In this document: positions 1 to 58,903 of the stretch, in pieces
How positions within the stretch are numbered: position 1 is the first letter of the stretch
How the letters are laid out: every line of letters starts with the position of its first letter
Assembly (NCBI GenBank): GCA_029378245.1
Contig: JARKIF010000013.1
Coordinates: 496,001-560,000, forward strand
Origin: Roridomyces roridus
Taxonomy: Eukaryota > Basidiomycota > Agaricomycetes > Agaricales > Mycenaceae
DNA: 64,000 bases
Direction: 5' to 3'
The notes under the pieces: model-generated
Databases searched by the model: none
What the model was told of the DNA's origin: nothing
What the model saw: the letters and a program-made list of their open reading frames with translations, nothing else
Program-made: the position numbers and the translations under genes

Positions 1-1668
1 CCGCCCTGGTGTTCGGACATGAGCGCCCACAGACGGGCGTACTCCTTGAGATGGTTCCCGGATCGGAAATCGACATCCAGAATGAGGCTCAGATTGCGGA
101 ACTGAGGAATAAAATTTGGTACGTCCAAGAATCCCTCCATTCATGTGGACGTTAACTCGAGGGATCCTAGGCCAGCGATCGAAGAAGCCAACGCCATCGC
201 ACCGGGATTTAGCCGTCTCTTTAAAGAGATGATACTTTTTGCCTCTGCGGACAAGCCCCTTCCCCGGGCTGGCAAAGGCACAGTTCTGCGGAAGGCCGCT
301 CTCACGTTGTATGCCCCTGAAATCGATGCCTTGTGAGTTTCCAAGTTCTCAGCAAGTTTCGAGAAGACCCATGGGTTGTAGATACAAGCGGGTCGAGGAA
401 CACGCTGTGGACATCATCGAGGCGCCGACTGTATGGAAGGTTGAATCTATTCAGCCATGGTTGTTGGAGGTGGCGGCCAGTGTTTGCACTTTTATGGCAT
501 TCTCGCCACGGACAGATCTTCGTCAGCAGGGATTCGACAGGTCTGTAGAGCCTTTCTTTCTTCCTTCACGCTACGGATGATTGATTCCTTTCTCAGCCTC
601 ACGGCGACTATCTTTCGATTACACATCACCAAGGGTCTCCGGTCGCGCAAGCTCGAAAAGGAGGCCAAGGCAATACCCCAACATCTCGTGTATTCCCGTC
701 CGACTATCGAAGAACTATCCATCTTCCTCGAAAGCCTGGTCGCTGGGACTCTATCCCAGACCGACCTTCGAACAAACCCCGCGGCTCAGTACGTCGCCCC
801 CATGACCTCCGACACAGTCGTCGAGCTCTGCACAGAGGCTGGTGGAGTTCCACTCATCGTATTCCCCGGCATCCGCGGCACCCTCGATTCAATTCGACCG
901 ATCCGCGCACATTTCCGTGGAACCATGTGGGGCATCCAAATTCAAGACTCGACGCCCATATCCCCTTTTGCTACCTTCGCCGCCTTCCTGACGGATAAAA
1001 TCCGCGAAAAGCGACCACATGGGCCGTATCGCTTGGCCAGCTACTCCGGGGCCTCCGTCCTTGTCGTCGCCGTGGCGAAACTGTTGGAAGAGAGCGGCGA
1101 GGAGGTCACACAGCTTTCCTTCATCGACCAATTTCCCTTGTTCTGGACCGTCGAGCCTACGTATGAGGCATTGCGAGATGAGGAGAAGCGTTGTGCGTGG
1201 ACTTCGCAGGTGCCAACCCGAGAGGTTGGGCTCTTTGCCCATGATCCGCTCTATGGGCCGGAGAGCGATCGGCACAAGGAACTCAAAGCGGTTACGACTG
1301 CATTTGCTGCGGGGGAATCACATGAATATGAATTCGAGATGGAAAGGATGGTGATTCGGCAGCGCCAGATTGATTCGTTGCTTGATTTTCTCGCGAGCTT
1401 CCTACCCCCGACGAGCTCTGGATCTGGACTTGCCGAGTACGCGGATGCGATCAACCGCTGGTTGTCCTCAGTCAAGGCGCCCCTCAGCGCGTTCACAGCG
1501 GAATTTGGGATCGTCGCAACTATGCCTGACGATGTGCGCAGGGAGTGGGGGGATTTGGGTGCCAGTCGGTGTTTCAAACCTGTCAAACATCATTTCCTCG
1601 ATGGCGTTGGACATTATGGGATTATGGGGGATAAGAGGTTGTCGGAGCTCTTGCAACAGAATGCGTAG
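1..1668 (+). CDS. NRPS-like synthetase (adenylation-thiolation-thioesterase), 3' part
   Basis: The gene enters from the left edge, so its start is missing. Four exons are visible: to 118, 171-332, 382-540 and 597-1668, with GT-AG introns between. The first exons give the C-terminal part of an adenylation domain (HERPQTGVLLEMVPG, then PLPRAGKGTVLRKAA). The carrier-domain site GFDSLTATIFRL is created only by splicing 540 to 597; its Ser carries phosphopantetheine. Then comes an alpha/beta-hydrolase thioesterase (VPLIVFPGIRG, GPYRLASYSGAS, LSFIDQFPLFW). The A-T-TE order is known from basidiomycete quinone (atromentin-type) synthetases and related NRPS-like enzymes, which activate an aryl or amino acid and release it through the TE. 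The substrate cannot be read because the specificity pocket lies outside the window. The TE nucleophile motif is SYSGA rather than GxSxG. Stop TAG at 1666-1668. Confidence 0.85.
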
Positions 1669-4417: not shown

Positions 4418-6781
4418 ATGGACACAGAGGCTCTCAGGACCTTCATGAAAGGCAATGGAATGGATGCAGATCGTTTCCTCAAGATGATGGCCCGCGTAGA
4501 CTTGAAGTCGGATCCTATCCGCCCAAACGCTCCCACTCCCCCAACCTCGGCCACTGCGTTGTTCGCGCCTAATGCTGCAGCCACGGGCCGGAGACCACAG
4601 AACGACAGAATCCAGATGCTTGCGCGAAATCCTGACGGATTGGACGACCTCTGTCCACCCAACACCACCAATCGTGCCACCTGCTTTGTGCGGGGCAATG
4701 TCTTCAAAGCTAAGGCCGAGAGACAATGGGCGGCCAAAGCGTACTCTGACGCGCGGGTATCTTATGTGCAGGCTGCTTGGGAAATGCTTGGAGTACCTGT
4801 GCCGGGAGCTGGCGAGGTCCGCTCAGAGGATTACGCGCGTCTGGGCAGCGGCTGGGATGCGGTCGATATGCTGGGATGCATCAACGGGGTCATCGCGTGC
4901 TCCAGGCAATTGAAGGATTACATCACTGTGAGTGCCACGGAACTTCCATTTATCTTTATTCATCGGTATACAGGCGCTGTTGTGGGTCGAGGAAGCCGCG
5001 GTGGTCGTGAAAAACATCGAGATTGCGAATAAGCTGGAATCTTCTTTCGGTGAGTCTTCCCTCATCCAACCACGGCGGCGTTGATAATTTGACAGAATGG
5101 ACTCCGATGCAGCTGAGCGCTCTCCCCGACTATTTCTTCGAACGCACCACGTCTTTGTGTCTGGCTGCGGACATCTTTCTCGCGGTCGGGAATACTGGCT
5201 GCGCTGTACATCGTCGTTGGGTTGCTGACGAGATGCTGGCGTTCCTCCCTGATCGCCTAAAGACGTCGCAAACACGTCAATTTGACCCTCCTCTCGGTGT
5301 CGACATCGCTCGTCTCCGTCATCCCGATCCTCAGAGGATATCGTCCTCGACCATCGAGGATCCGACGCTTCAGGTGCAAGGATCCTGGCAGAAGCTGAGC
5401 ATCCGAAAGGCAAATACACTCAGTCCTCGTCAGCGTTGTGCTGTTATGGCCTTTGACGGTGAGTTGCGTTCATCTTTTCGCCTGTCATCTGACGTCTTTT
5501 AGGCAAGCTGTACGTCCTCGGAGGCGAGAAAGTCACCGGCGGCCCATACTACCGCGATTTCTGGATGCTCGACCTAGCATCTTTGAGCGGATGGGAGCGC
5601 CTCCCCGACTTTCTGATTCCCAAACATGTCATGGGGGACTTCATCGGGTATCAAATGACCCCTCATCGCGATGGGGCCGCCTTCGTCTTCGTTGGCGTGC
5701 CCATGGTCGCCATCTTTCATCTGCGACGGCGTAAATGGGCTATGCTGGATGCAGATTTCATTCCGGACGCACAAACGCCCGAGTGGCCATACTCGCGTGT
5801 CCGAGACTACAGCGCCCATTGCGTCGGGGACAAGCTGTATATCTTTGGTGGGACATGTCCCGGGAGCGCCGTCGGCACTGATTTATTCATGGAGCTCGAC
5901 ATTACGAGTAAGAAGTGGCGGAGGCTGGGTGGGTCGGCGGTACCCAAGCCATCGGCGGTGTCCCCTGGCCCGCGCGCCGATTGCTCGAGTTGGGTGTCCA
6001 AAGACCAGAAGCAGATTTTCTTTTTGTTTGGAGCGGCCGATAGGAATGCTGCGATGCAGCATGGCCAGGTGCATGGGCATCTTTACTCGTACGGGTATGG
6101 TGATTTGTGGAGTTGGGATATCGGCGAGGAGAGGTGGACGAGGGAGCGGATGATTGGGAATGTGCCTTCTCCGCGCGGGGAGATGGCGTGTGTCTATGCA
6201 AGTTCCGCGTTCTCTTTCTTTCTCCTTTCCTGGTTAACCTTAGCTTGCAGCACGAAGCCCTCGACAAGGTCGTCCTTTTTGGCGGGTACAGCCCTACCGT
6301 GCCAACCTGGTTCGACGAAATGAACGACACGGTAACATACACATACTACGCTGATACCTTCATCGGCGACATGACCTCCTCTTCTTCGTCTTCGTCCACC
6401 AACCCGAACCCTGTATCCTGGCGTCAAGTCCTAACCCGCGGCTTCCCCACCTACCGTGCCCAATCATGGCTCGTCGTCGACTCCAAGACGGGCAAGATAT
6501 ACCTCTTCAGCGGATACAAGAACACGACGTACGTGCCGTCCAAGGGGAGTACTAGTACCGAGAACAAGGGCAAGGACAAGGACAAGCCCAAGCCCAGTTC
6601 GCGGAGTTTTCTCGATTTGTGGCAACTCAAGCTCGATGTGCCTGGTGGGCATTTCACTGGGGTTGATTTAGAGGAGGAAGCGAGGACGGCGGTGGTAGGG
6701 CCTTGGCAGAGGTGTTTTGCGTGTGGGTCGACGGGGCCGTGGAAGAAGTGCGGAGGTGTGTACATCATCCAGCGGAAATGA
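4418..6781 (+). CDS. Kelch-repeat protein with partial MYND zinc finger
   Basis: Exons are 4418-4927, 4974-5049, 5096-5458, 5503-6197 and 6251-6781 (724 aa). The N-terminal third is helical and TPR-like (FKAKAERQWAAKAYSDARVSY). From exon 4 kelch blades follow: KLYVLGGEKVTGG, KLYIFGGTCPG, VVLFGGYSP and IYLFSGYKN. The C-terminus holds the first knuckles of a MYND finger (CFACGSTGPWKKCGG) but reaches a stop before the remaining Cys/His ligands. MYND-kelch proteins are numerous in mushrooms and probably work as protein-interaction platforms. The fourth intron (6198-6250) begins GCAAGT, a GC-AG intron; removing it joins ACVY to HEALDKVV in frame. A missed 3' exon after 6765 could complete the finger, but I found no good candidate. 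Confidence 0.85.
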
Positions 6782-7004: not shown

Positions 7005-7937
7005 CTACCCCGCTGCATTCTCAGCTTCCCCTGGCCACGTCAACATCGAAGGAGCCTGTCCACCGCCAGGTTTCTGATGCTTCAACCTCGGCTTAACTTT
7101 CCTATTCCTCATAAGCGCAATCGGCCTCTCCTTCCCTCTCAACCGCGCATACACGCCACATGCATTACAAATCTTCACCCCGCCCTTGCCGCGACGCCAC
7201 ACGGACGTGTGACGCGTGTGGCAATGGCTGCATCGCGGGCCGGTGTACCCCTCGTCATCGTCGTCCTCATCGGTGGACGAGGAAGAGGGGGAGTCGGCGT
7301 CGATGAGCGCTTGGGGGCGCAGCATGTTCCGCTGTTGGAGGTAGAGCCCGCAGGCGTTGCATAATGGGAGTCTGGTCGTGGGGTTGCGCCGCCAGAGGGG
7401 CGTTGTGGTGGTGTGGCAGTGGGAGCAGGATTTTTGGTTTGGGTTTTGGGCCACGGGTGCCTGGGCCTCGCGATCGTCGGTGTGCGTGGCCCTCGGCATC
7501 TGTGGGAGCGGGACCGGTGGTGGCGTTTGCGAAGGAGTAGGGAGGAAGTAGGTTGATAAGGATGGAGAGGAAGATGTCGTCGAACTTGAGCTCGAGGCGG
7601 GACGCATGTTGGTGTGAGGAAGCGAGTAGTACTCGGAGCCGCCCCAAAGCTGGGGTGTCGGCCTCAAGAATTGGCCATGGGAGCCGGCGGTATCGGGTGC
7701 AGTGGGCATGTATGTCCCATGAGAACCGCCGCCATATTCCGCAAAGTGCGGGCTCTCATCGTATATTGGGATGAGAGTCGAAAAGTCGAGTGGAGGGTAG
7801 TTGCTGCGCTGAGCTGGTGGAGCTAAAGAGAGGGATGATGAGCACAACGAAAGGTGGTCTTGTTGTTGTGAATACTCACCAGTGTGCCAGCTCGACTGAG
7901 GCCAGCGCGAAGCAGATTGAGAGTAAAAGTCGTCCAT
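7005..7937 (-). CDS. GATA transcription factor with two zinc fingers
   Basis: The product has two GATA-type fingers of the form C-x2-C-x18-C-x2-C. Finger 1 begins CSHCHTTTTPLWRRNP and ends LCNACGLYLQQR. Finger 2 begins CSHCHTRHTSVWRRGKGG and ends ICNACGVYARLRGKE, followed by a basic tail (RNRKVKPRLK). The N-terminal half is Ser/Pro-rich and likely disordered; an acidic run (DEDDDDE) links the fingers. It should bind GATA sites in the nucleus. The iron regulators of the SRE/Fep1 type have a Cys-rich segment between their fingers; it is absent here, so an iron role is not supported. A 57-nt segment early in the frame (GTGAGT to TTTAG) is probably an in-frame intron. A TATA box lies at 7983-7993. 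An alternative 5' exon may exist further upstream (8020-8250). Confidence 0.85.
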   Translation of the reverse strand: MDDFYSQSASRWPQSSWHTGEYSQQQDHLSLCSSSLSLAPPAQRSNYPPLDFSTLIPIYDESPHFAEYGGGSHGTYMPTAPDTAGSHGQFLRPTPQLWGGSEYYSLPHTNMRPASSSSSTTSSSPSLSTYFLPTPSQTPPPVPLPQMPRATHTDDREAQAPVAQNPNQKSCSHCHTTTTPLWRRNPTTRLPLCNACGLYLQQRNMLRPQALIDADSPSSSSTDEDDDDEGYTGPRCSHCHTRHTSVWRRGKGGVKICNACGVYARLRGKERPIALMRNRKVKPRLKHQKPGGGQAPSMLTWPGEAENAAG

Positions 7938-7993: not shown

Positions 7994-9253
7994 GGTAACC
8001 AAAACCCCGAGTGCGGATCTGGGATCAGTCCTGTAAGGTTGTTAGTGTTACCGGGGACTGCCACTCGGGCGCATCGTTCGCATCTGTCATACGAGCGGTG
8101 CACGAGCCCTCGACTGGGGTTGGCTGCATACCCGAGATCGTCGGAGGATGACTCGAGTAAAAGTCCCGGTACTCCGCAGAGCTGTACAATGTGCCCTTCC
8201 ATGCATCATAAGAAGGTCTATTCTCCAGGGACTCGACGCCATCGGAGGCAAGGCACGGACGGACTCCGTGATGCAGTGACGACTATGCAAGGCAAGCCAT
8301 CTCGAGAAACTTACGCCACAGGAGAACAACATATGTTTGACTCTAAAAGGCTAATTAATCAAACCAGACTTGGGAAGCATGCGCACTGCGCAGCTATTCT
8401 GGAGTACTACCGGTGGAGTGAAGGGAGGGTCCGACGGAGGGTGGCACCGACGGAGTAACGGGGCTGTGTTTACTTTGCGGCGACCACGCAGTTCAAAAGG
8501 CGAAGTTCCCCACCCGGCGAGAGCACCCCTGAGGACTCCACGAGCGATATGAAAGCGAGGAGCAAGATCTGTATGGACCACGTGGATCTTGCGTGGATCA
8601 AACACGTAAGAGCGGGTAATGGATCAAAGATGCCGACTCGGAGCCAAACAACTACATACTTGTCTCTTGCCTTTCGCCTCCGACCTCGGTCCGCATACAG
8701 CTAGGGCGAGGATTTCTCCGCGCTGCGTCGACGTCGTTCACCCCTCTATCTCCAAAGTCCAAGAAAGTCCAAGACTGAGACCTTGGCACCTCTCGCGGCT
8801 GTATCTTTTCTCCAACTTTACACAAGCCGGGATCGACTCCCCGTACGCATGCAGAGTCAAGTCGATCAGAGGCGATCATGCGCAGCAACGCCGAGGCCTA
8901 CCGAGACAAACCGTTTCTTATTCCTTTCCCGCAGCGCCCCTTTCCAAGGAATCACGAGGATCCATTATCCGACCTTCCGAATTTCATGCCCGAACTTTGG
9001 TGGCAGGGCAGGCCGTTTGCATTTGGACGCCCTCCCGCCACCTCAAGTTGAAGACTTGAAGTTCTCTCTGCACAGTGCATGATGATGGACATCGGCTCAC
9101 GCTGCTTGGCTCTCACGGAACGATCACGGGGGGACAGCCGAAACGTCTGCCAAGCACCACAAGCGAACACAAAGTCTGGGCCAATTAAAAGGTTTCAGAT
9201 CAACGGCGCGCTCTCGCCTCGCCCTCCCCTCCCTCGTCCTCCCCGCTATAGGC
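7994..9253. other. Intergenic, possible upstream exon of the GATA gene
   Basis: No gene is firmly supported. On the minus strand, about 8020-8250, one frame reads like Ser/Pro-rich coding sequence (LYSSAEYRDFYSSHPPTISG) and is bounded by GTAAC and TAG signals. It echoes the DFYSQSASRWPQSS start of the GATA protein and could be an alternative first exon. The rest is the shared upstream region of two genes. An AATTAAAAGG element at 9182-9191 is a plausible TATA-like site for the plus-strand gene at 9254. Confidence 0.4.
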
Positions 9254-14021: not shown

Positions 14022-17000
14022 ATGGCCAGCGTTACTGAACTCTGCGCCAACACCGACATCTCGGGCATCGGGGTCCGCGTTGCCACCTACGCCCAAAACT
14101 TCCTCAGCTTCGTCCCGGCCTTCTACGCGATCCTAGGCGACGGAAAAGTCAGTAGCGCCGAAGTCTCATTCATCGAAGACCAGTCGACCAACATCCTCCT
14201 CACCGCCTTCGGCCTCTTGATCTCCACCATTGTACAGGTCACCGATTCTCAAGGCCTCGACAACTACCATGCCGCACTCGTCCTTAATCTCAGCTGGATG
14301 AACAATACCAACACGTTCATATACCTCCTACTCCGCATCCACCGTGCCATTTGGCAGCAGGGCAAGACATGGGCCGACTTCTGGGCCGAGCTGCGAGACT
14401 GGACGAAGAGGACCTGGGCCGTCGTACACCCACGGCGAATTTGGACCGCTGTTTGGACCGAGAGACACTCCTCGACCAAAGCCAGAGTGGTCCCCCACCA
14501 GTCCCCCTCCTGCGAGCCCCCCTCCTCTAGGGACCCCTCCTCCGAAGAGTCATCGTGGTTCTCCGCTCCCACGCTCGTTGGCAGTGCTCACTTGTCGCTC
14601 ATGGCTGCCGTAGGCATCTGGCTGTGGGCAAATCCGGCCGGTTTCGGGACCTCAGAGTCGCCGCAATGCCTGCCTGGGCCACCGCCCTCCATCTCCGTCC
14701 TGGGGCAAAAAAAACTCTTCGATTCTAGCCTGCTGCGCATCCTCTCGCTGATGATCTATGCCCTCGTTGCTATCCCGGGAATCAATCTTGTCCTCCCGAT
14801 ACTCTTCCTCTCCGGACCCTACCTTGTCTTCCATCTGGGGATCTGGGGAAAGGAGTCAACCCCCGATGCAGAAAAAAGGCAGCCCGCTCCCGAGGACAAA
14901 GGGCAGCGCCTGAGCGAAGACAAGGAGCGGTGGGCGAGGTGGTCTTCCAGGTGCCTCATCTCCGCGCTCTCTGCGCTTCTTGCTATCAACATTATCTTCG
15001 TTGTCGACACCGAGCTCGCGATATCTCGGAATGAATCTCGCCAAGCGGGGCAGGACAACATTTGGACTCTCGGTCAGGTGTTAGCGCTCCTGCTCGTTGC
15101 AGTTCTGCTGAAGGATCTTTTATTGTACTTGTGGTCTTCGACACCACTGGGAGCACATTTTGGCACGGAACTTGGACTGGCGATGAAGGGTTTCCGCAGA
15201 AAGCCAGATGCGAGAACAACAAATGCGATTGACGGAGAAGATGATGATCCATGGGAAGTGGTGCGCAAGTGGATCTCGACGATCGGAGACACTCCAGGTA
15301 CGAATTTGAACATCTTACCATTTGATTGGGCTCAAGGCCCCTTCCAGTCAAGGTCGACTTCTCCTGGGTGTATCTTGCTGAAAAGGAAGGTCATGGCGAC
15401 ATCATACGCTTTCTTTTGAGAAATGTACCCAATATCAATGAACAAGGTGAGTTTCCCATTCCCATTCTGCAGGCGATCTACCAACATGTCTACAGATGAC
15501 GCAGGGAAGACTGTGTTGCACTACGCAGTGATGCGCGGTCACCTAGGCATTGTGAAAATTCTTAATGATAATGAGGCTTCGCTCGAACTTGGAGGTGCGT
15601 TGTCATTGATTCGAGAGCCGTTTGAAAGTTGATGGGTGAGTGAAGATCGCGACCTGGCCACGCCGCTGCATCTCGCATCATCAGGAGGATATGTCAAAAC
15701 TGCACAGCTGCTCATTAATAGCGGAGCGAATGTCAACGCACGAGGTTTGTGATCAGCTGTTCTTCCTTGCAACTCGTTGAGTAGCTGGACAGATATTGAT
15801 AGGTGGACACCGCTACATTATGCGGTACTGAAAGGCCACATTGAAACCGCAAATCTCCTCGTAAAGAACCGGGGGGACATTGGTGCAAAAGGTGGGTATT
15901 CTCTGCATCTCTCTCGCTTGCCTCATTGATTACCGGCACAGACGAGAATGGTATGACTGCAAACGATCTTGAAACACGTGTGGTTTTCACGCTACTTTCC
16001 CACGCTTTTTTCATCATCCACACAGGGGACAATGGGAACACACCACTGCATGTTGCATTAGCTGACGGCCAGGCTGACATTGCAAAGCTCCTGATTGAGA
16101 AAGGAGCTAAGATCAGCGTCAAATGTGTGTATTCTGCTCTTCTTTCCCCCTACCTTGTTGACCATCCACACAGGCAACAGTGGGGACACGCCACTGCATG
16201 TTGCATTAGCTAATGGCCATGCTGATGTTGCAAAGCTCCTGATCAAGAAGGGAGCTGACATGAGCATGAAACGTGTGTCTTCTGCTCTTCTTTCCCCCTA
16301 CCTTGTTGATCATCCACACAGGCAACAGTGGGGACACGCCACTGCATGTTGCATTAGCTAATGGCCATGCTGATGTTGCAAAGCTCCTGATCGAGAAGGG
16401 AGCTGACATCAGCGTGCAAGGTGTGTCTTCTGCTCTTCTTTCCCCCTACCTTGTTGATCATCCACACAGGCTACAGTGTGAACACGCCACTGCATGTTGC
16501 ATCAGCTAATGGCCATGCTGATGTTGCAATGCTCCTGATCGAGAAGGGAGCTGACATCAGCGTGAAAGGTGTGTCTTCTGCTCTTCTTTCCCCGTACCTT
16601 GTTGATCATCCACACAGGCTACAGCGGGAACATGCCACTGCATGCTGCATCAGCTAATGGCCATGCTGATGTTGCAAAGCTCCTGGTCGAGAAGGGAGCT
16701 GACATCAGCGTGAAAGGTGTGTCTTCTGCTCTTCTTTCCCCCTACCTTGTTGATCATCCACACAGGCTACAGAGGGAACACACCACTGCATGTTGCATCA
16801 GCTAATGGCCATGCTGATGTTGCAATGCTCCTGATCGAGAAGGGAGCTGACATCAGCATGAAACGTGTGTCTTCTGCTCTTCTTTCCCCCTACCTTGTTG
16901 ATCATCCACACAGGCAACAGTGGGGACACGCCACTGCATGTTGCATTAGCTGATGGCCATGCTGATGTTGCAAAGCTCCTGATCGAGAAGGGAGCTGACA

Positions 17001-17586
17001 TCAGCGTGAAAGGTGTGTCTTCTGCTCTTCTTTCCCCGTACCTTGTTGATCATCCACACAGGCTACAGCGGGAACATGCCACTGCATGCTGCATCAGCTA
17101 ATGGCCATGCTGATGTTGCAAAGCTCCTGGTCGAGAAGGGAGCTGACATCAGCGTGAAAGGTGTGTCTTCTGCTCTTCTTTCCCCCTACCTTGTTGATCA
17201 TCCACACAGGGGACGATGGGAACATGCCACTGCATGTTGCATCAGCTAACGGCCATGCTGATGTTGCAAAGCTCCTGATCGAGAAGGGAGCTGACATCAG
17301 CGTGCAAGGTGTGTCTTCTGCTCTTCTTTCCCCCTACCTTGTTGATCATCCACACAGGCTACAGTGTGAACACGCCACTGCATGTTGCATCAGCTAATGG
17401 CCATGCTGATATTGCTAAGGTCCTGATTGCGAAGGGAGCTGACATCAGTGTGAAAGGTGTCTTCTGCTCTTCTTTCCCCCTACCTTGTTGATCATCCACA
17501 CAGGCAACAGTGGGAACACACCACTGCATGTTGCATTTAGTGCTGGCAAGGTTCGGTTCGGTTCGGTTCAGCAGCATTTTTTCTGA
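14022..17586 (+). CDS. Membrane protein with C-terminal ankyrin array, truncated by a transposable element
   Basis: Exon 1 (14022-15297) encodes about 425 aa with some six hydrophobic segments (SLMAAVGIWLWANPAG, LSLMIYALVAIPGINLVLPI, LISALSALLAINIIFVV, LGQVLALLLVAVLLKDLLLY). Ankyrin exons follow at 15348-15446, 15496-15594, 15646-15744 and 15793-15891, each exactly 99 nt (33 aa) with phase-1 introns. Then come a 36-nt remnant (15942-15977) and ten near-identical 99-nt exons from 16026 to 17456. The eleventh begins at 17504 and is cut at 17537 by an inserted element, reaching a stop at 17584-17586 (926 aa). Without the insert, exon 17 is 34+65=99 nt and the frame closes through a last exon at 18282-18292 (REY, stop) at 935 aa. 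Start chosen at MASVTELCANTDIS. Ankyrins mediate protein binding; the membrane part suggests a sensor or anchor. No ATPase or effector domain is visible. Confidence 0.8.
16026..17537 (+). repeat. Tandem array of 148-bp exon+intron ankyrin units
   Basis: Donor sites fall at 16125, 16273, 16421, 16569, 16717, 16865, 17013, 17161 and 17309, exactly 148 bp apart (99-nt exon plus 49-nt intron). The tenth intron starts at 17457 and is 47 nt. The ankyrin consensus is GNTPLHVASANGHADVA then LLIEKGADISVK. Units differ at the first four residues (NSGD, YSVN, YSGN, YRGN, DDGN), at V/A after LH, and at K/M before LL. The units at 16618 and 17062 encode identical proteins and share a CCCCGTACC intron variant, and the VQ-YSVN junction occurs twice. 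This points to block duplication. Introns are as conserved as exons. Confidence 0.95.
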
Positions 17587-18160
17587 ACCCCGAACCTGAA
17601 CCTGGCGTTCGGTTCGGGCCATTGCCGAACCTTGAACCTGAACGCGCGTTCGCGTTCGGTTCAGGTTCGAACGTGTTCGAACCCCGCCGGTCCCTGATCC
17701 CAAGAATTCTCCCAAAAAAGTGCTATGTGCTGAGGGTACCTGGGAAGGAGTCAACTGAGGTGCTTTGGGGAGCCCGATGGATCATGTACGGCGCTGTAAT
17801 GTGCAGCCGACACATTCCCACCACTATTGATGCGCCATCAATCATCTTGATGATTAGTCAGAGGCACGCAACACGGCGTAAAAATGGGCTACAAGGGTGT
17901 GGATGTTACCGGATGGGTATACTTGCTACAGATCGCACCGGCACTGCCAGAAATGTGGGAAATCCGGCGTGTAATTGACACAATTGCGCTGATGGGGTTC
18001 ACTTTCAGGTTCAGGTTCGAACGCGTGCGGTGCTGGCCGAACCCCGAACCGAACTTGCGTTCAGGTTCAGGGATTTTGTGAACCTGAACGCTGAACCCGC
18101 GTCCGGTTCAGGTTCGGTTCAGGTTCGAACCGATTTCTGAACCGGACCTTGCCACCACTA
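17538..18160. mobile_element. Non-autonomous hAT-like element (MITE), 623 bp
   Basis: The ends are imperfect inverted repeats: TAGTGCTGGCAAGGTTCGG on the left, and TAGTGGTGGCAAGGTCCGG when the right end is read inward. An 8-bp direct duplication flanks it, GTTGCATT (17530-17537) and GTTACATT (18161-18168), one mismatch. Deleting the element and one duplication restores a 99-nt ankyrin exon. Both subterminal regions are full of GGTTCGGTTC and GGTTCAGGTTC words. No transposase frame is present, so it must have been moved by a transposase elsewhere. An 8-bp duplication with TGGCAA-type ends fits the hAT superfamily. Confidence 0.88.
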
Positions 18161-18389
18161 GTTACATTAGCTAATGGCCATGCTGATGTTGCAATGCTCC
18201 TGATTGAGAAAGGAGCTGACATCAGCGTGAAACGTGTGTATTCTGCTCAGCTTTCCCATTTCTTGATGATCATCCGAACAGGCGAGTACTAGACATACTA
18301 TTGCAGCACAGATGGACCCATCTATTTTTTACATTCTACATATTATCTGAGACTGCCTAACCGGCCAGCCTAGCCATCCGGCCATTTGC

Positions 18390-19930
18390 CGTTTTGTGTT
18401 GGACCCTGCATTTATGAATGTGAACTCGGTCACCCGTGTTAGATTTGACAACTGATCAAATACAGGAAGCTGGGGGGCTTGAGCTCGCAAGCCCCCGTAT
18501 ATATAGTAAATCTAATGCTGCGCCGCAGCGCTGCGCAGAATCCGGCGCAGCTGTAGAAGCACCCTGCGCGGTGTTCTAAATATTTCCCAACCCGGTGTTT
18601 CTCCGTGCACACAGCGGGCCTATTCCCAACAACCCGGTGTAAATTTATTTCTCATTCGAAGATACGGGCTTGGATTGGAGGAGGTAGAGTACCTCGTCCT
18701 TTAACCACACGTATCTGGTGAGTTGGGGAAATCGAGAATTCAAATGAATTCTTGAAGAACCACACTGCTCGTTCGACTCGGGCGCTCGCACCTTGACAGC
18801 TGTGCAGAAGTCTTTTCTTTCTCCCTGTGAATGAAATGTACTGAAGTCAATTGCAACTAATTAGGTGACGGTCGACTGGAATACAACCTGTCCGATTAAT
18901 AAGGTCCTGTCGTAGATGAAATTCATAGGCAGACAAGCGCCGGTCTGTGAGCCAGTTGGCACCTGAGCTCGTTCGATTCGAGTGTCCAATCTAGGCGAAT
19001 TCGAACCGGATCACTCTCTCGTTTTGCATACATACACCGTCATTTGGCGGCCGCGGGTACACAGTATAACTCAATATTATACACCCAAAGACAGCTCATG
19101 CAGATGAATTCCAGTCCTGGTCTTGCACTCTTTTCACGTTCTCAAGGCGACTCTGCGTTCGATTCGCATGTTCGCCATAAAGTGACTACCGGGGACTTTT
19201 TTGTGAAGTATGCTTCTGTAGCTATACCGGTGGAGGATTGGGAGACATTGCTCTATATGTTGGCTGCTGCAGCAGTTGGCGTGATGTCTACTAATTGGTG
19301 AACGTCTACTCGAATCCCACCTTGTCGTCACGGTATGGAAAGTTCATAGGCCGACGAGCGCCGTTCTGTGCAGTGTGAACAAAACAGAGCCGGACGTCAT
19401 GCTGGCACAGTTCGTTCGATCCGGGTGTCTGCTCTGGTTAGATTGAGTCGTTTTTTGTGACCCATAAAAGAGCACTTATCATGCGGGTACGCAAACGGTA
19501 TGTACATCCCAGTCTTCAAAAAGCTCTCTTGACCCATCATGTTTTCCGTCCCCGACGGCACCCGAAGTCAAGGTTAATTTCTACCCTAGCGCGTCCCCGA
19601 AGCAGCTCAAGCTCTGTGACTGTTTGCAATGTCATGAATTGAGGTCCGCCTTTTCTCTTTTACCTTGAGCATTACCTCTTGGGGGGATTGAACGGTCACT
19701 ACCAAGCTTAAGGATCTCCAGTTTAAGAAACCCAGCTACAACGAAGCATTTGTTGAATGGAATGGATGCAATTCAGCCACGTACCGGTCCAACGTCAAAA
19801 GGTAGAGTCGGCTTCAGGCTGCTTGCGTCGACACCCGGTTTTGTACCATTTTCGCTTCGCATCAATGCGGCTGGAAGGCGGCATCGTCGCATCACCTGCC
19901 AGACATCAAGCGGATCAATGGTCCTGTTTG
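18390..19930 (+). repeat. Large dispersed repeat, copy B
   Basis: Direct-orientation partner of 10690-12075, sharing the same ordered landmarks. The CGTTCGATTCGG-like motif recurs near 18767, 18976, 19157 and 19412. Part of the inner unit (GGGAGACATTGC; GATGGAACAAAGCTCAAGAT) appears again at 20110-20280, so the repeat is internally reiterated. A 24-nt palindrome (GGGGGCTTG/CAAGCCCCC around AGCTCG, about 18475-18498) lies just inside its left side. No coding domain was found. Confidence 0.7.
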
Positions 19931-56416: not shown

Positions 56417-58903
56417 CTAGGAAGACGGTGCAGCAGGCCAATGCGTAATCTGCGTCTGCGTCCCCGTCAACCTAAAACTATGCATCGCCCTGGTCGGGAC
56501 ATCCAGAATCAAACTATAATCCCCAGGATACAACCACGCATTCCCATTCTCATCCGTCCTCGCAACACTCCCCAGCGTCACCGGCAATTTCACAGTTGCC
56601 GCACTCCCAGGACCAACACCCTTGACACGCGCGTACGATACAAGCTCTTTGTTGGGGAACGGCGGTGGCCCCGCGGTGGTGTTGACAAACAACAGGGCGA
56701 CGAAATCCGACTTGACAGCTCCCTTGTTCTGCACCTCCACCTGGAAGGTATCCAACACCGCACGGTCCAGAGGCGCATCTCGAGGAGCAGCAGCGACAAG
56801 CGCCTGGATAGCATAGGACGCCTTGGGTGTACTGGCAAAACCCGGCACGAACGTCGTGTAGCTCATCCCAAAGCCGAATTCGAATGTAGGAACACCGGTG
56901 TACCATTTGTAAGTGCGTCCGGGATTGGATGCGCTCGGACGCAACGTCATGTCCGTCATAGGAACTTGTTCGACGTAGGCGGCTGGGTACTGTGTTACCG
57001 GCAGACGACCCGAAGGCGCAGTTTGGCCCGTGAGGACATTGAAGATAGCTGTGCCGCCACTTTGCCCAGGGTATCCGCTCCAGACGATAGCAGAGACCTA
57101 CGAGCACGTAAGTGCACGACTATCCAAGGAAGAATGAACATACATTTGGATTACTCTTCAAGTCCACATCATCCAGTTGTCCGCCGCCAAACTGCAGCAC
57201 GACCAGCGGTTTGCCCAGACCCGCAAGCTGCGTGATGAGATCGAGCTGGTTCCCCGGCCATGTCACTGTAGTTCGATCCATACCCTCGGCCTCGACGCTA
57301 GTGTCCAATCCACCCGCATACACGACAACGTCCGAGGTCATCGCAGCCTCGAGCGCAGCGGCAAACCCACTCGTATCGTCCGTGTTGATCTGCGTGCCGA
57401 GTGCGGATACCACAGAGAATCCAGCAGCCTGTGCACCAGCAAACGGGCTGATCAGGAAAGGTGACGGCCCAGCGTAGTTGCTTTGCATCTGCGTCGTTGC
57501 GTTCGTCCAGGGACCGATGAGTGCGAGAGTCCCGGTTTTGCTGGTGGACAGGGGAAGGACGTCGTTCAAATTCTTGAGTAAGACGAGGCCTTCGGCGGCA
57601 AGCTCAAGTGCCAACTGCTGCGCGCTGGCAGTGTTTACTTCCGACCAGCCGATTTGCCGGTATGGTTGCGACGCAGGGGGATCAAAGTATCCTAGGCTAC
57701 AAACTGAGTATCCGTCCTCCATGAAAGAAATCGGACTCACCGTATCATCGACGAATACTGCCTCGTCAATGCCCTCGCAAGTGTCGAAGAATTCGTCAAG
57801 TTCATCTGAATCGCCGCCCCAAGATTATCTCCAAAAGTCGTCCCACAATCAATATCCGTCCCAGCATTCATCCCCACCGCCGCCGCATGCACGAAATCCG
57901 GCACGAACGCGCGCTGGTCAAACAGAAATTCGATCGCATCGCAATCCGCCACAACCCATCTCTCCTCGTCAAAGCCCAGATACCCCCGTAACAGAGTCTG
58001 CAACACGAACGGATCCGCACACGCCGGCAGCCCATTCACCGCGTTGAACGAACACATGACCGAGCGTGCCTGGGCATCCCGTACGCAGCTTTGAAACGGC
58101 TGGGTGTAATACGAGGCCAAATCCTGCTGCGAAATCACCGCGTTGAACACGAAACGGTTGGTGCCAGGTGGATTCTCCAGGTCGTACCCGACGAGGTGCT
58201 TGCAAGTGGCTGCAATCTTGAGCTGCGGGGGATCGATGCCGCCTTGGAGGCCTTGGACGTAGTTGAGTGCGTATTGCGCAGCACGGAAAGGGTCTTCGCC
58301 GGGTGTTTCTTGACCTCGGCCCCAGCGAGGGTCGCGGAAGGCTGAGCAGTGTGTGAGTCCCCGTGGAAAAGTCATTACAGGCAACCTCACGATTGATGTT
58401 TGGTGTGAAATAATCAAGACCACCCATGTTCGCGTTCGAGAAGGCGCGGGCTTCGGTGCTTATAACATCGCCGACGGCCAGGAGTGCGAGATCGTCAAAG
58501 GCGGCGCTCATATGTATCGGCGCAGGGAAGGATGTAGCGAAACTGAAATTGCCGGATGAAGCGAAATTGATGCCCGGGCTAGTAGCCAATCCATGCTGGG
58601 AACCGTCAGAGAGGCACAAATATCGGAACCTCAAGCTCATACCAGCGCTTCCTCCGCGGATTGATAGGCCGGGACACCAAGTCTCGGGACGCCGGGGGCC
58701 CCAGAGTTCGTGTTACTGACCAGTTCGTCGGTGGTAAACATATCAATGAGGGCCTTGGCGCGTGCAGACGGTGAATCCGACGTATCGCACACAGTGGTAT
58801 TCGCGAGCGGGCCATTGACGCAATCCGGGAAGCCGAAAGCCAATGTCTGAGAAGCGTACGCGAGAACTGAGGCAGCCCAGACTGCTTTGCGCATCCTAGC
58901 CAT
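56417..58903 (-). CDS. GH3 glycosidase, beta-xylosidase type
   Basis: A minus-strand gene with several short introns. The signal peptide is MARMRKAVWAASVLAYASQT (continuing LAFG). The N-terminal part reads NTNSGAPGVPRLGVPAYQSA then EEAL-HGLA after the first intron, as in fungal GH3 xylan 1,4-beta-xylosidases. Further motifs: DPRWGRGQETPGEDPF, AATCKHLVGYDLENPPGTN, VMCSFNAVNGLPACAD and WVVADCDAIEFL with the Asp nucleophile (DCDA). The C-terminal domains include EGLVLLKNLNDVLPL, ALIGPWTNAT and a fibronectin-III-like end with FEFGFGMSYTTF. It should release xylose or glucose from short oligosaccharides outside the cell. It lies directly upstream of the mannanase gene in the same orientation, 390 bp apart. 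Confidence 0.9.

Follow-up and report, generated by a model that had tools for sequence, protein, structure and literature searches.

How can a gene gain and lose single protein repeats when each repeat carries its own intron, and what would such a gene be for? The question is raised by a membrane-ankyrin gene of the agaric Roridomyces roridus, located on the + strand at positions 14022-17586 of the 64,000-nucleotide stretch of DNA that was analysed (the window; contig C35:496001-560000 of a 90.8-Mb, 501-contig assembly). Its spliced model encodes 926 amino acids (aa), a predicted membrane domain followed by ankyrin repeats, and its 3' part is an array in which exon and intron are repeated together. 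A DNA search of the genome found further arrays on contigs C157, C501, and C458; the window copy (C35) and C501 are referred to as locus A, the window locus, and C157 and C458 as locus B. On balance, the array is probably a recognition surface whose diversity is maintained through the turnover of units, in a predicted membrane protein with a cytosolic ankyrin solenoid.

The exon-intron array

Ten complete units, each consisting of a 99-nucleotide (nt) ankyrin exon and a 49-nt intron (47 nt in the tenth unit), occupy positions 16026-17503 on the + strand, with the exons spanning 16026 to 17456. Tandem Repeats Finder assigns the array a period of 148, 10.3 copies, and 93% matches. An earlier account, here called the sequence-only reading, had described this array at 16026-17537, and its ten complete, open, in-frame 99-nt exons are real. 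The exact 148-bp succession that it reported holds for the ten unit starts (nine intervals); the tenth intron being 47 nt long, the next start lies 146 bp on. The array does not stop at position 17537: a mobile element, which interrupts an eleventh unit, begins with the following base.

Amplification by whole exon-intron units and block duplication, both proposed in the sequence-only reading, are borne out by the units themselves. The exons of units 5 and 8 are identical, and the introns of units 4 and 7, which immediately precede them, share a private G. Amino-acid identity among the ten window units averages 79% (69-100% between pairs). Compared with itself, the window protein matches at 89 of 100 positions at a lag of four units and at 84 of 100 at a lag of one unit; the criterion for high internal conservation (HIC) is at least 85% over at least 100 residues, and the unit mean is 79%.

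The array introns are probably removed by splicing, for which the evidence is indirect but good. Among the 50 units of the four gene copies, the introns measure 44, 47, 48, 49, or 50 nt, while the exons measure 99 nt in 48 cases and 63 nt in two (36 nt fewer, a difference divisible by three); splicing is thus supported without RNA, because intron lengths vary freely while exon lengths keep the frame. The splice sites are uniform, with the donor GTGTGT and the acceptor ACAG each found in 46 of the 50 units. Exceptions in C501 include one GC donor and one CAAG acceptor (L010:5118, which is unit 3, and L010 unit 2). Retention of the introns is rejected on account of the 18-23 stops in each frame of the unspliced window array, and a plain satellite on account of the array exons, none of which (0 of 50) contains an in-frame stop.

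Gene model

The membrane domain is encoded by exon 1 (14022-15297, + strand), an open frame of 1,276 nt, i.e., 425 codons and one base. It is followed on the same strand by four unamplified exons of 99 nt, each a single ankyrin repeat according to the gene model (phase 1) and Pfam Ank models (exons 2-5; 15348-15446, 15496-15594, 15646-15744, and 15793-15891), with introns of 48-51 nt around them, and by a half repeat of 36 nt in the gene model (exon 6; 15942-15977, + strand), which is also present in C501, C157, and C458. Each of the 16 modelled exons, from exon 1 to the tenth array exon, ends in phase 1, as the sequence-only reading had stated for the array introns, and every exon after exon 1 is symmetrical, being flanked by phase 1 at either end. 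Because exons 2-5 are already 99 nt long and in phase 1 in all four copies, the layout of one repeat per exon seems to predate the amplification. The gene models close without 3-bp mini-exons (exons after the first measure 36, 63, or 99 nt), which were not specifically searched for. In the repeat part of the window protein, Pfam recognizes seven ankyrin families, together with DUF6140 and, below the cutoff, an OspC match.

The eleventh unit starts at 17504, and its modelled frame continues into the inserted element as far as the stop codon at 17584-17586 (17504-17586, + strand). The element, a hAT-like non-autonomous insertion of 623 bp (17538-18160, + strand), has the termini TAGTG(C/G)TGGCAAGG, is flanked by an 8-bp target duplication (GTTGCATT / GTTACATT), and is without counterpart in C501, where the site is empty. 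Among the 52 genome matches listed, its own included, 28 cover 600 bp or more of 627 bp, and 17 of these do so at 92% identity or more. Roughly two thirds of repeat 11 are severed by the insertion, along with the native C-terminus: the rest of the unit 11 exon, which carries the right-hand target duplication, lies at 18161-18233 (+ strand), and the former last intron (18234-18281) and the last exon with its stop (GCGAGTACTAG) follow up to 18292 on the same strand. This end is intact in C501, the modelled protein of which terminates in REY. A second insertion-like stretch, at approximately 18437-18637 and thus downstream of the gene, is also missing from C501. Further away, four of ten scanned neighbouring open frames match known families (thioesterase, kelch, GATA zinc finger, and glycosyl hydrolase 3), none of them obviously related to the array gene; these frames lie at window positions 457-1665, 5565-6320, 7008-7937 (- strand), and 57740-58423 (- strand).

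Unit turnover between gene copies

The number of units changes between near-identical copies of the gene within one genome. Between the window start and the point where contig C501 ends, C501 is collinear with C35, with gaps; the array excluded, identity is 94.5-99.8% (99.5% in the 3.7 kb that precede the array). The window copy contains ten complete units and a split one, whereas C501 contains nine complete units after a broken remnant. Among the complete units (10 x 9 compared, with the split unit 11 left out), three pairs agree within two bases, W4/C501-6, W6/C501-7, and W9/C501-5, and their order differs. The second pair of copies differs more strongly: C157 contains 21 units and C458 only ten (one of 63 nt in each), although from C157:790325 up to the C157 contig end their non-array sequence is 99.2-99.9% identical. 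C458 lacks counterparts of C157 units 5-15, and the first four and last six C157 exons pair with C458 exons with 0-1 base difference each. This difference of exactly 11 units agrees with the frame-neutral gain and loss of units anticipated in the sequence-only reading, and the repeat-number polymorphism is visible without comparing strains, because near-identical copies differ in whole units.

A twofold difference such as 21 against ten would also suit a length-tuned scaffold or tether, in which the repeat number sets the length of the solenoid or its avidity for a fixed partner without any role in recognition. This function is unlikely, as it leaves the combination of surface-biased variation and uniform introns (see below) unexplained.

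All four copies have open spliced frames, encoding 926 aa in the window, 869 aa in C501, 1252 aa in C157, and 889 aa in C458. The C501 value presupposes that the first array unit is skipped. This unit is a 14-nt exon remnant (L010:4667-4725), left after a deletion that removed part of the exon together with its donor site. Two readings were tried: keeping the remnant leads to a frameshift and a stop after 585 residues, while skipping it maintains the frame. The C501 frame, the phase-1 symmetry of all exons past the first, and a proposal made for brown-algal LRR-ROCO genes (leucine-rich repeats, LRR; PMC11378527) could together point to in-frame exon skipping, by which one array would yield many isoforms and diversity would arise at the RNA level. 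The uniform donors and acceptors may fit constitutive splicing equally well, and we consider skipping an improbable source of the diversity.

The C35/C501 and C157/C458 pairs are inferred to be two haplotypes of two loci, i.e., alleles; between the loci, exon 1 is 94% identical. The synteny of the second pair ends upstream at C157:790325 and C458:1146162, and the stretches beyond are mutually unmatched. At this border, C458 carries two 100% identical sequences of 1.4 kb (1129518-1130940 and 1144739-1146161), which recur elsewhere too and are probably the ends of a young long terminal repeat element. The assembly is not uniformly two-haplotype, because a search for the second haplotype of window 50-54 kb gave, besides itself, only partial, many-copy matches among those listed. 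Two more family members, at C458:290667 and C335:404, encode the membrane domain along with some fragments of ankyrin repeats that lie in differing frames, and no array was noticed within the stretches examined there.

Tandem arrays are prone to misassembly, and the synteny break adjoins a repeat in C458, so that collapsed or misjoined repeats might be suspected behind the unit-number differences. Such an artefact is very improbable: the difference between C157 and C458 consists of entire units whose borders are intact, most of the additional units are unlike any C458 unit, the contigs are long (2.9 Mb for C458), and the C35 and C501 units differ in sequence as well as in number.

Variability of exons and introns

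At locus A, exons and introns of the array are not equally variable. Among 14 units (window units 2-9 and C501 units 3-8; first, last, and length-variant units excluded), exons have a nucleotide diversity (pi) of 0.092 and introns one of 0.008, with 30 of 99 and 2 of 49 variable sites, respectively (p=0.0001). The statement of the sequence-only reading that introns are as conserved as exons is therefore wrong for this locus, where they are about ten times less variable. One reading of the contrast is diversifying selection on exons combined with homogenised introns; intron constraint or intron-favoured conversion are alternatives.

Units are homogenised in a locus-specific manner. Of 18 core C157 units, 17 share a one-base intron insertion that none of the 14 units of locus A has (first, last, and odd-length units excluded), and this locus specificity shows concerted evolution. 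The four-gamete test detects exchange within units for 54 of 190 site pairs at locus A and for 27 of 91 in C157. At locus B homogenisation is incomplete, because the mean intron distance within C157 (0.067) exceeds that between the loci (0.041).

Outside the array, exon 1 is under purifying selection between the loci, with a ratio of nonsynonymous to synonymous substitution rates (dN/dS) of 0.33. The unamplified exons 2-5 show a dN of 0.050 and a dS of 0.027 between the loci, based on few changes (14.5 and 2.5).

Position of the variation within the repeat

Variation among units peaks at codons 2 and 3 but also affects codons 5, 10, 12, 14, 21, 25, 32, and 33; the claim of the sequence-only reading that units differ mainly at the first four residues is too simple. 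Positions 2, 3, 5, 13, 14, and 33, which we take to be the randomised binding positions of designed ankyrin proteins, have a higher summed entropy than random sets of six positions among the distinct exons of locus A (n=18, p=0.004), of locus B (n=21, p=0.0006), and of both (n=39, p=0.0005). Ankyrin positions 9, 11, 17, and 20 are invariant across the 39 distinct exons. The variation is thus biased towards ankyrin surface positions. In an ankyrin-containing member of the fungal NOD-like receptors (NLR; NOD, nucleotide-binding oligomerization domain) from Podospora, positively selected and polymorphic sites were located, with one exception, on the concave binding face (PMC4986451).

Selection or neutral turnover

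Positive selection on the array is suggested by the exon-intron contrast, yet plain dN/dS of about 1.1 gives no proof of it. Over the whole unit, the nonsynonymous and synonymous diversities (pN/pS) are 0.090/0.078 at locus A and 0.106/0.093 at locus B. In hairpin codons 2-5, pN exceeds pS (0.26/0.12 at locus A and 0.27/0.19 at locus B), and the whole-unit ratio is only about 1.1.

Beyond that ratio, several points weigh against a recognition surface maintained by selection. With pN and pS nearly equal, synonymous exon sites, too, vary more than the introns do. At locus B the contrast between exons and introns is less marked: 13 C157 units with 50-nt introns have a pi of 0.098 in exons and 0.039 in introns and 31 of 99 and 9 of 50 variable sites (p=0.12). 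The tests count units as independent although they are related by descent, and a surface bias is expected in any ankyrin from structural constraint alone. The mobile element in the window copy and the broken first unit of C501 could reflect decay of locus A, and C157 and C458 may be a recent duplication instead of alleles.

Some of these observations would be expected from neutral, minisatellite-like turnover, in which a region under little constraint tolerates unequal crossing-over and the number and sequence of its units matter little. The ratio near 1.1, the interruption of one copy and the broken unit of another, and the loss of 36 nt within a unit all conform to it. Nevertheless, none of the 50 exons contains a stop and exon length changes preserve the frame, positions 9, 11, 17, and 20 do not vary, exon 1 is constrained, and drift does not explain why introns at locus A are tenfold less variable than exons. 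Neutral turnover is accordingly regarded as a rather doubtful, though not negligible, account of the array.

Membrane domain and its family

The AlphaFold2 model of exon 1 (70 sequences) is nearly all helical, with a mean predicted local distance difference test score of 82 and a predicted template modelling score of 0.79. Helices are predicted at residues 16-40, 45-74, 81-112, 182-203, 236-277 (kinked), 291-336, and 350-373, and the domain would thus comprise about seven transmembrane segments. Lysine and arginine residues number ten in the 113-181 loop and seven after residue 373, and 0-2 in the loops of the opposite side. According to these charges the repeats probably lie in the cytosol, two short loops being uninformative. 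The model, hydropathy, and loop charges agree in predicting the multi-pass membrane partner that had been proposed from the sequence. Exon 1 matched no Pfam family and no PDB sequence up to E=1, and a structure comparison with VIA-align yielded, among the families listed, nothing clearly above unrelated helical bundles. G-protein-coupled-receptor-like proteins, defined by a seven-helix fold with the N-terminus outside, were among the classes considered.

Among 8000 scored candidates, 186 proteins match exon 1 at E<=0.001, among them P0002, with 65% identity across 100% of exon 1 (E 1.2e-156). The nearest proteins among the matches listed come from Mycena olivaceomarginata (65%), M. alexandri (60%), and M. 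pura (58%). The family was represented by the 171 distinct relatives among the matches listed. Pfam, applied to 51 of them, found Ank in 44 and HEAT in six, and relative P0125 contains WD40 repeats. P0125, P0134, P0131, and P0136 are Mycena proteins that pair the same membrane domain with WD40 or HEAT/ARM repeats. The search for the exon 1 domain elsewhere that the sequence-only reading had recommended thus led to relatives with ankyrin, HEAT/ARM, or WD40 repeats, and the domain belongs to an unnamed agaric family joined to any of the three.

Internal conservation recurs in the family. P0134 has 86 of 100 identical positions between its own repeats; a strict scan (100 compared positions) found seven of the 171 relatives at 85%, and a lenient one (at least 33 compared positions, region of at least 100 residues) found 23 of 171, and 22 of the 86 relatives of at least 550 residues. 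For dikarya, published HIC shares are 10% of NLR ANK domains and 1.2% of repeats (PMC4986451), figures obtained by another method and not comparable with these scans as enrichment. An equivalent exon plan may underlie two relatives: P0003 stops shortly past an exon-2-like repeat, and P0004 contains stretches resembling translated introns between its repeats. A near-relative search with the array returned ankyrin proteins of many kinds, with identities of at most 53% among the best 120 of 7590 matches; being saturated at 8,000 scored candidates, it is uninformative on the presence of the array elsewhere.

Comparison with known systems

A close parallel is found in the HIC fungal NLRs, i.e., Podospora het-d/het-e and their relatives, which are described as having similar sensor repeats, repeat-number variation, concerted evolution, and variation at predicted binding positions (PMC4986451, PMC12222747); fungal NLRs and the agaric membrane family both use ANK and WD40 repeats (PMC4986451, PMC12222747). 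The sequence-only reading had noted this resemblance, and it applies to the behaviour of the repeats, as described in both papers (PMC4986451, PMC12222747), but less well to their similarity, as the units average 79% identity. The mushroom gene differs in its partner, a predicted membrane domain in place of a NOD of the STAND class (signal transduction ATPases with numerous domains). Pfam found no NACHT or NB-ARC domain in exon 1 (up to E=1) or in the repeat part, as the sequence-only reading had maintained for STAND ATPases. Membership in the NLRs is rejected, no NOD having been found. The duplicating unit of the mushroom gene also contains an intron, and the word "intron" does not occur in the main text of PMC4986451 or PMC12222747.

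One repeat per exon with fast turnover has a precedent in the brown-algal LRR-ROCO genes. These and the NB-TPR genes likewise have a single intron phase and rapid exon turnover (PMC11378527), and diversifying selection has been reported for them (PMC11378527). They differ in their repeats (LRR or TPR, not ankyrin), phase (2, not 1), partner (ROC-COR or NB), and lineage (PMC11378527); Pfam found neither a ROC-COR domain nor LRRs in the exon 1 and repeat parts of the window protein. NACHT-ANK proteins of Tuber melanosporum resemble the mushroom gene as fungal ankyrin sensors diversified via exon structure (PMC4986451, PMC9815663, PMC10197012). They are NLRs with 3-bp mini-exons and alternative splicing, whereas the mushroom gene has whole 99-nt repeat exons and genomic unit turnover. 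In the Hessian fly SSSGP genes, tandem copies also have introns more conserved than coding sequence, a pattern interpreted as positive selection plus homogenisation (PMC2955719); these are separate genes for secreted proteins and not repeats within one gene (PMC2955719).

The agaric relatives, several of which are recorded in Mycena as "Multiple ankyrin repeats single kh domain", have the same membrane domain followed by repeats; they were compared as protein records, in which the exon-intron layout is not visible. A literature search of titles and abstract starts found no paper that deals with this membrane-ankyrin family or with mushroom ankyrin arrays built of exon-intron units. The parts thus have precedents in NLR repeats and brown-algal repeat exons, and their combination, a membrane module with intron-bearing units, was not found in that search.

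Proposed function and significance

In the proposed explanation, the product would be a membrane protein with approximately seven transmembrane helices and a cytosolic ankyrin solenoid. One repeat is encoded by one symmetrical phase-1 exon, and an exon with its intron is what is duplicated in tandem or lost. Aided by near-identical introns, gene conversion or unequal crossing-over among the units would alter the number and order of repeats and leave the frame intact, while selection would maintain diversity of the binding face. The solenoid might bind partners that vary (nonself, symbiont, competitor, or allelic self) and signal via the membrane domain. It would then work much as the sensor repeats of a fungal NLR do, although the protein is not an NLR.

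A broader generalization is tentative and at present only a possibility. Agarics could possess a class of recognition receptors without a NOD, in which a seven-helix membrane module is combinatorially paired with ankyrin, HEAT/ARM, or WD40 sensors, some of them HIC. In this lineage the sensor would consist of intron-bearing cassettes, with near-invariant introns providing homology for recombination, exons providing the variable binding face, and phase-1 symmetry keeping the frame upon gain, loss, or skipping of units.

The array constitutes a natural experiment, as the introns within the units serve as a built-in comparison for the evolution of the exons, and two loci with two near-identical copies each allow array turnover to be viewed against slowly changing flanks. 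Most descriptions of fast-changing, internally conserved repeats of fungi concern NLRs (PMC4986451). The search for fungal recognition receptors would be widened by a membrane-anchored family in which the repeats behave similarly and one repeat type can replace another.

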